From contig NZ_JACIDE010000001.1 in NCBI RefSeq assembly GCF_014196205.1, positions 62,001 to 126,000 of the forward strand: a stretch of 64,000 nucleotides of DNA, written 5' to 3'. A model generated the notes under the pieces. That model was not told where the DNA came from, did not search any database, and saw only the letters and a program-made list of their open reading frames with translations. A program made the position numbers and the translations under genes. This document shows, piece by piece, positions 20,768 through 39,701 of this stretch. How positions within the stretch are numbered: position 1 is the first letter of the stretch; each line of letters opens with the position of its first letter. The stretch is from Anoxybacteroides voinovskiense (lineage in GTDB: Bacteria; Bacillota; Bacilli; Bacillales; Anoxybacillaceae).

Positions 20768-20786
20768 TCCCGTAGGCAGCCGGCCG

Positions 20787-20956
20787 AGCAAATAAGGCAG
20801 GTCTCCTGACTTAGGATCATCGCTTCATTGCGTCTTCCCGAAGTGTCCTTCAGTGACATTGTTGCAATGAAACTCCCCATCACAGTGGCGGGTACCGTGA
20901 CGGCTTTGCACCGTACTTCCCTTTTAAGCCTCCTTCAAAGAGGCACCTTACTTGCT
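20787..20956 (-). promoter_or_regulatory. cobalamin riboswitch aptamer
   Basis: The B12 box AGTCAGGAGACCTGCC is present on the minus strand (about 20796-20811). Upstream are the other conserved core elements, including GGTGCAAAGCCGTCACGG and CCGCCACTGTGA. The closing P1 stem can be read: AGCAAGUAA (20956-20948) pairs with UUAUUUGCU (20795-20787), with one G-U. Binding of adenosylcobalamin should switch off the 16-gene operon through the terminator at 20681-20713. Confidence 0.95.
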
Positions 20957-20990
20957 ATATTTTCAGTTGTAGAGTAGCTACTCACTCATC

Positions 20991-27456: not shown

Positions 27457-27465
27457 ATTTTTCAT
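27457..27465 (+). repeat. left 9-bp target duplication of MITE copy 1
   Basis: ATTTTTCAT, repeated exactly at 27716-27724 on the far side of the element. Confidence 0.9.
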
Positions 27466-27715
27466 CAGGCGTGTTGATTAACCAATAAAAACCAGTTGAC
27501 ATCGCTCTATTTCTAGCTTTTCTGCCGTAGTCGGCAAGCGAATCGCTTGCCGACTGGGCATGCGCACAGCATGCCCTCCTCGAACAATGAACGCTTTGCG
27601 GGCAAATGTCATTTGCCCGCCGGCATTCTTGTTCGAGGGAAGAGGCAGAAAAGCTTGTGTTCAGTCATATGATTCTGTGTTTTTTTAGTAAAACAATGGA
27701 TAATCAACACCCGTG
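27466..27715. mobile_element. MITE-like structured mobile element, copy 1 (250 bp)
   Basis: Noncoding element with imperfect inverted ends: CAGGCGTGTTGATTA on the left and, read inward from the right, CACGGGTGTTGATTA. It is flanked by 9-bp direct repeats (ATTTTTCAT). Inside is nested palindromic structure: a 12-bp pair AGCTTTTCTGCC (27515-27526) / GGCAGAAAAGCT (27644-27655) encloses a hairpin AGTCGGCAAGCG.. (27529-27555), a hairpin GGGCATGC.. (27556-27576), and an arm CCTCGAACAA / TTGTTCGAGG enclosing GCGGGCAAATG.. (27598-27620). A second copy with the same orientation lies at 39447-39692. No ORF or transposase is inside, so movement in trans is inferred. It explains most of the gap 27382-27838. 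Confidence 0.88.
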
Positions 27716-27724
27716 ATTTTTCAT
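27716..27724 (+). repeat. right 9-bp target duplication of MITE copy 1
   Basis: ATTTTTCAT, matching 27457-27465. Confidence 0.9.
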
Positions 27725-39414: not shown

Positions 39415-39438
39415 AAAAAAGAACGGCAAAAGCCGTCC
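39415..39438 (-). terminator. terminator of the small gene at 39693-39938, displaced by the MITE
   Basis: GGACGGC / GCCGTTC stem with TTTT loop and a TTTTTT tail on the minus strand. It lies just beyond MITE copy 2; without the insertion it would lie immediately after the small gene's stop. Confidence 0.82.
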
Positions 39439-39446
39439 TAACGTAT
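39438..39446 (+). repeat. left 9-bp target duplication of MITE copy 2
   Basis: CTAACGTAT, repeated exactly at 39693-39701. Confidence 0.9.
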
Positions 39447-39692
39447 CAGGCGTGTTGATTAACCATTAAAAACCAGTTGACATCACTCTATTCCTAGCTT
39501 TTCTGCCGTAGTCGACAAGCGGTTCGCTTGCCGACTGGGAGTATTAGCATGCCCTCCTCGAACAACGAACGCTTTGCGGGCAAATGACATTTGCCCGCCG
39601 GCGCTCTTGTTCGAGGGAAGAGGCAGAAAAGCTTGTGTTCAGTCATATGATTCTGTGTTTTTTAGTAAAATAATGGATAATCAACACTCGTG
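39447..39692. mobile_element. MITE-like structured mobile element, copy 2 (246 bp)
   Basis: Same element as 27466-27715, same orientation. The ends are CAGGCGTGTTGATTA on the left and CACGAGTGTTGATTA read inward from the right. It is bounded by CTAACGTAT direct repeats. The enclosing AGCTTTTCTGCC / GGCAGAAAAGCT pair, the CCTCGAACAA / TTGTTCGAGG arm and the GCGGGCAAATG hairpin are intact; the middle GGGCATGC hairpin has lost its left arm, and the first hairpin has one changed pair. It was inserted between the stop codon and the terminator of the small gene at 39693-39938. No coding sequence is inside. Confidence 0.88.
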
Positions 39693-39701
39693 CTAACGTA
39701 T
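39693..39701 (+). repeat. right 9-bp target duplication of MITE copy 2
   Basis: CTAACGTAT, matching 39438-39446; its first three bases are the stop codon of the minus-strand gene. Confidence 0.9.

Follow-up and report, generated by a model that had tools for sequence, protein, structure and literature searches.

What moves a 250-bp element that encodes no transposase, and what does that element carry? The question arises from a locus in the window, by which we mean the whole 64,000-nucleotide stretch of Anoxybacteroides voinovskiense DNA analysed here (C1:62001-126000 of its own genome, G000, which comprises 3.23 Mb in 58 contigs). The original prediction described a non-coding element of 250 bp that has inverted ends and is flanked on both sides by a perfect 9-bp ATTTTTCAT, and each of these features lies exactly where it had been placed (Table 1). 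Inside the 250 bp there is no ORF of at least 90 aa and no transposase. The element is located approximately 120 bp upstream of narG, with a gene for a PRK11648-like metal-dependent hydrolase on its other side; the match of this neighbor to PRK11648 (88.3 bits) is under the cut-off of 216 for that family.

Table 1. Positions of the two MITE copies and their parts, numbered from the first letter of the window.
Feature	Position	Strand	Basis
Left target duplication ATTTTTCAT, 9 bp	27457..27465	.	sequence; G006 empty site
MITE copy 1, non-coding, 250 bp	27466..27715	+	sequence and genome copies
Left terminal inverted repeat CAGGCGTGTTGATTAACCA, common to MITE and IS5377-like IS	27466..27484	+	
Cloverleaf closing stem, 5' side	27515..27526	+	fold; conserved in alignment A2
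Arm 1, short hairpin	27529..27555	+	fold and alignments A2, A4
Arm 2, short hairpin	27556..27576	+	fold and alignments A2, A4
Arm 3, long hairpin with internal loops, tip GGGCAAAT-GTC-ATTTGCCC	27577..27639	+	fold and alignments A2, A4
Cloverleaf closing stem, 3' side	27644..27655	+	fold and alignment A2
Right terminal inverted repeat, reverse complement CACGGGTGTTGATTATCCA	27697..27715	-	sequence
Right target duplication ATTTTTCAT, 9 bp	27716..27724	.	sequence
Copy 2 left target duplication CTAACGTAT	39438..39446	.	
MITE copy 2 (L024), 246 bp, arm 2 shortened	39447..39692	+	
Copy 2 right target duplication CTAACGTAT	39693..39701	.	

A search of G000 with the element returns 102 match rows, in which 32 places cover 240 or more of the 250 query positions, and further copies are partial. 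Thirty of the 32 near-complete copies were fetched as loci, and among these 30 an exact 9-bp flanking repeat, each copy having its own, is present at 26 and missing at four (L006, L008, L028 and L030). At L021 the end motif is mutated and the exact 9-bp repeat is still present. Flanks shared between copies had been named as the pattern that speaks against transposition; they match in 0 of 870 cross pairs between different copies, which rules out a shared-flank artefact. Additionally, the relative G006 carries a single ATTTTTCAT and no element at the same site (L350), which is the empty site that the original prediction proposed to look for, and G005 (L339) and G001 (L341) are also without the element there. 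Because all three genomes are empty at this site, the window insertion is recent in its lineage. The 30 fetched copies all lie outside predicted ORFs, as drawn by a crude ORF caller, and their orientation relative to tandem genes is opposite in 12, the same in five and other or undetermined in 13. Taken together, the exact duplications, the empty site of a relative and the lack of an internal transposase uphold transposition of a non-coding unit. With terminal inverted repeats, a target duplication with its empty site, a short length, many copies and no transposase, the 250-bp element is a MITE.

An end-motif search of G000 yields an insertion sequence of 1250 bp on contig C15, with ends CAGTCGTGTTGATTAACCAATAA and GGATAATCAACAGCCGTG and a DDE_Tnp_1 transposase (PF01609) that a frame break splits into parts of 219 and 150 aa. 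Its first ORF shares 78.7% identity, over 216 of 216 aa, with Geobacillus plasmid proteins annotated as IS4-like element IS5377 family transposase. The ends of this plasmid relative are of the same kind as those of the C15 IS and the MITE, and the YREK motif is present in both the C15 IS and the relative. The NF033592 score is 115.5 bits for the first C15 ORF (cut-off 115) and 226.5 bits for the plasmid relative. Left IS ends are found at six places in G000 (C15, C16, C17, C30, C33 and C45) and right ends at five (C6, C13, C14, C15 and C47), and all except those of C15 fall within approximately 400 bases of a contig end. Fragments at these contig ends pair as two IS copies with identical 9-bp flanks, TGAAAATGT (C16/C13) and AAAAAATGT (C45/C47), and the 9-bp repeat is absent at the C15 copy and at the plasmid relative copy. 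The frame-broken C15 copy is the only one assembled, and the contig ends suggest that G000 also holds an intact partner.

The accessible part of one review gives IS4Sa elements a size of 1150-1750 bp, ends that begin with CA and have T at position 9, and repeats of 8-10 bp (PMC2266710). The partner, with its 1250 bp, ends of the form CA------T and 9-bp repeats at two copies, probably belongs to this subgroup. Transposition of the Geobacillus kaustophilus IS4/IS4Sa element ISGka3 has been observed and produces 9-bp repeats, as described in the accessible part of PMC8024623. The IS with MITE-like ends that had been sought is thus at hand in an IS5377-like element of the IS4 family, which has the same ends and 9-bp duplications at two copies and, judged from sequence, is the likely partner of the MITE. 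The common ends and the common duplication length suggest that the MITE is mobilised in trans by the IS5377-like transposase, which would recognise it via the shared ends, cut it out and insert it with a 9-bp duplication.

What, then, is being carried? The original prediction, sound as to the transposition of a non-coding unit, left the interior unremarked, and the interior holds a conserved cloverleaf. In this core of approximately 140 bases (window 27515-27655), the stem GCTTTTCTGCC/GGCAGAAAAGC closes a junction from which two short hairpin arms and a long third one extend. For the 250-nt strand the fold energy is -121 kcal/mol, compared with -66.7 (sd 4.4) among shuffled sequences (z -12.3; 0 of 200 as good), and DNA parameters give a similar fold. 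In alignment A2, which comprises 32 cores chosen from at least six genera with the structure written out by hand, both-side changes occur in 14 of 52 pairs, where shuffles give 8.7 (1 of 500 reaching that number), and in 71 cells, where shuffles give 20.5 (0 of 500) and slid partners 8-15. The closing stem is near-invariant in A2 and therefore gains no covariation support from it. Alignment A4 contains 23 relatives aligned with model R1, so that its counts favour structure; both-side changes affect 49 of 52 pairs and 228 cells, against 26.6 and 56.2 when shuffled, and 11-17 pairs when slid. In a pooled alignment of 72 cores (group A_f1), RNAalifold draws the arms poorly. In 14 of 17 diverged copies, which were chosen by hand, conservation is higher in the core than in either spacer.

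A strand test for selection at the RNA level compares G-U with A-C changes, which should balance when neither strand is preferred; it gives 58 versus 40 events (p 0.085, seven groups summed, none significant singly), and 158 G-U cells versus 55 A-C cells, an excess inflated by shared ancestry. At the window copy, neither a terminator nor a promoter-like site directed into the core was found. At the gathering score, Rfam contains no family for the window core or for 11 other core loci, and at a lax threshold the best score in the core region is far below its gathering score. Origin of the core from a rearranged tRNA-like structure or a known riboswitch finds no support in the Rfam searches. The only Rfam match in the window is a cobalamin riboswitch (RF00174, 133 bits, 20779-20965, minus strand), which adjoins a run of minus-strand ORFs. 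A literature search, with most subscription journals outside its coverage, found no paper on the cloverleaf core.

Repeats that contain the cloverleaf core fall into at least three classes by their ends, namely a 9-bp IS5377-type, an 8-bp GGCTNTTTTC-type and a TATAGATGCAA-type. Class A, with IS5377-type ends and 9-bp repeats, is present in the genus of the window, in Geobacillus, in Anoxybacillus and on two plasmids, as well as in a genome of another family (G170; L188, L195). Class B ends are TATAGATGCAA-type in genus g4, and G010 has a similar TATAGATTCAAG form; beyond a TA-rich TATATA no duplication can be seen, and the target of this class would accordingly be TA. In G027, the 14-base class B end motif occurs 29 and 28 times against 0 and 0 for the reversed control (at most one mismatch), and one class B element lies on the plasmid of G. 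kaustophilus HTA426. Class C has GGCTNTTTTC-type ends in G168, G340, G231 and G127; both ends are found in 24 of 37 loci, with an exact 8-bp repeat in 16 of these 24 and in seven of eight loci that hold a full cloverleaf. These ends occur 259 and 264 times in G168 (control 25 and 36) and 137 and 136 times in G231 (control 37 and 22), and in G168 (loci L322-L333) they also flank interiors without a cloverleaf. A search for an ISL3 transposase (PF01610) as the class C partner found none in G168 and two broken matches in G231.

Class D consists of low-copy cores in families f27 and f47 with no ends beyond the closing stem. In f47, a single-copy core with three arms has matching flanks in six genomes of one genus; it is located between genes more than 1 kb apart (L190, L192 and similar), upstream of sufC and the suf operon in the genome checked with protein families. 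The neighbors of the f27 cores differ between species. Elements of classes C and D were not found on plasmids. One locus of G006 (L093) has two cores side by side, at approximately 1557-1700 and 1769-1913, which are of different sequence types, one in an IS5377-type element and the other TTTTTCGACTG-type. The core is thus common to repeats with different ends, a pattern which suggests that it behaves as a module.

Genome counts from the covariance models are lower bounds (strict filters, few candidates scored per genome). On this footing, model R1, built from A2, places the core in 31 of 41 family genomes and in 17 of 397 genomes of the order, which we take to be Bacillales, with six of the 17 outside the family. 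The R1 relatives outside the family, when read out, have the same stem and three arms in other sequences. Model R2, built from A4, finds the core in 38 of the 397 order genomes, of which 25 belong to eight other families, and in 14 of 135 genera; among 398 genomes of the phylum it finds two, G000 and one of the same order. Cores were read out in about half of the non-family genomes, the others (e.g., G108, G109, G135, G152, G163, G192 and G243) being assigned by the model only. A phage origin was considered and rejected, as neither phage searches nor a strict core pattern run against viral contigs returned a match.

The arms themselves are subject to rearrangements. Across 30 copies, the arm 1 loop reads GAACC in nine and GGTTC in 14, the arm 2 loop TGTAC in 15 and GCACA in six, and the arm 3 loop GAC in 16 and GTC in seven, the rest in each case being other or unread. 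The loop orientations of arms 1 and 2 are seen in G000 in each of their four possible pairings, and therefore loop flips recur. In L029 (C17:9369-9617), the whole of arm 3 is inverted relative to the rest of the element. Three MITE copies are armless, L084 (C15:30262) of 135 bp, L085 (C26) of 103 bp and L086 (C12) of 109 bp, and L084 and L085 keep exact 9-bp repeats despite the loss of all arms. Similarly, four class C copies of 128-147 bp have arm 3 lost or cut, each with its own 8-bp repeat. The inversions and losses imply that the hairpins form as DNA at least at times, and the armless copies with exact duplications that the arms are dispensable for persistence. The hairpins are thus targets of mutation at the DNA level, which could give the appearance of compensation. 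Template switching has been proposed to create and maintain RNA hairpins, according to the accessible part of PMC8794818, so the covariation needs careful reading, and part of it may be explained in this way.

We are confident that the element is a MITE with a likely IS5377-like partner, and that the interior of the MITE is a modular four-way-junction cargo found in at least three end classes within one bacterial order. The core would have passed between MITE backbones by recombination, or gained new ends more than once, and would be held as a structure; our guess is that, when transcribed or single-stranded, it may fold compactly and so make insertions between genes tolerable. That the common core instead reflects one ancient MITE whose ends have drifted, without transfer between end classes, we consider quite improbable. 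All end classes do lie within one order, and some genera contain both the 9-bp and the TATAGATGCAA class; yet duplications of 9 bp and 8 bp point to different transposases, and the other interiors between class C ends in G168 are as expected of exchangeable modules.

An ordinary MITE with functionless hairpins, in which replication template switching creates, perfects, flips and deletes palindromes and alone yields the apparent covariation, is in our view unlikely, although it would account for loops in both orientations and in all arm 1/arm 2 combinations within one genome, for the inverted arm 3 and for the three copies without arms, and has the proposed template-switch origin and upkeep of RNA hairpins behind it. 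Against it, arm order, arm lengths and the closing stem are kept across families and in repeats with different ends, the single-copy f47 locus retains its three arms in six genomes with matching flanks, and the core surpasses both spacers in conservation in 14 of the 17 diverged copies. A candidate structured RNA gene or cis-element, captured by MITEs and still acting as RNA, is a tentative alternative, favored by the covariation in A2 and A4 and by the ancestry-inflated G-U excess, but opposed by the non-significant strand asymmetry of events, by the empty Rfam result at the gathering score, by the window copy lacking a promoter-like site and terminator, and by the mixed orientation of elements to flanking genes. 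Among the possible roles of the core, a selected RNA structure is plausible though doubtful, a selected DNA hairpin somewhat unlikely, upkeep by template switching unlikely, and any other role very unlikely. We put forward only tentatively that the core is an undescribed structured nucleic-acid family across Bacillales, selected as RNA or as extruded DNA, which is carried exchangeably by MITEs that depend on several unrelated transposases and, in some genera, has become established as a single copy.

A MITE with an IS partner is a known type of system, for which the evidence here is strong; the unexpected part is the sharing of one core by elements with different ends. MITEs are usually regarded as remnants of a single IS, with a disposable interior. 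In this case the conserved part is the interior, and it is the ends that vary. If the core is selected, it represents a new structured RNA or DNA family and a case of modular evolution of small bacterial transposons. If not, the loop flips, arm flips and arm losses of one genome provide a rich natural record of hairpin template switching, and they caution that a functional RNA does not necessarily follow from strong covariation alone.

Among known systems, REP, BIME and REPIN sequences are likewise palindromic extragenic repeats moved in trans; these palindromes measure 20-40 bp, are associated with TnpA-REP HUH transposases and are not known to have DDE-type duplications such as those found here. 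The cargo of MIC231 is coding, and we know of no cloverleaf in MIC231 or IS231. MIC231 and IS231 (IS4 family, Bacillus cereus) likewise involve non-autonomous cassettes mobilised by an IS4-family transposase, modular according to titles cited in PMC2266710. Their ends and duplication length differ from those of the window MITE. The bcr1 repeat is a structured bacterial repeat, short and intergenic, whose transcript is predicted to fold stably. Together with Correia/nemis, BOX and QMITE2, it resembles the MITE in being short and intergenic with a transcript predicted to fold stably, and the accessible part of PMC10969869 reports none of these as sharing one covarying core among repeats with different ends. 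The GC clusters of yeast mitochondria are also mobile palindromes that merge and shuffle, but they belong to an organelle, are shorter (GC42 has 42 nt) and lack IS-type ends, as far as the accessible part of PMC4478555 describes them. The partner IS is closest to IS4Sa, IS5377 and ISGka3; the IS4Sa subgroup is like it in ends, size and repeat length (PMC2266710, accessible part), and ISGka3, compared by description, in making 9-bp repeats (PMC8024623, accessible part). Unlike the IS5377-like IS, with which it has approximately 20 bp in common at each end, the MITE is without a transposase, and its interior is unrelated.
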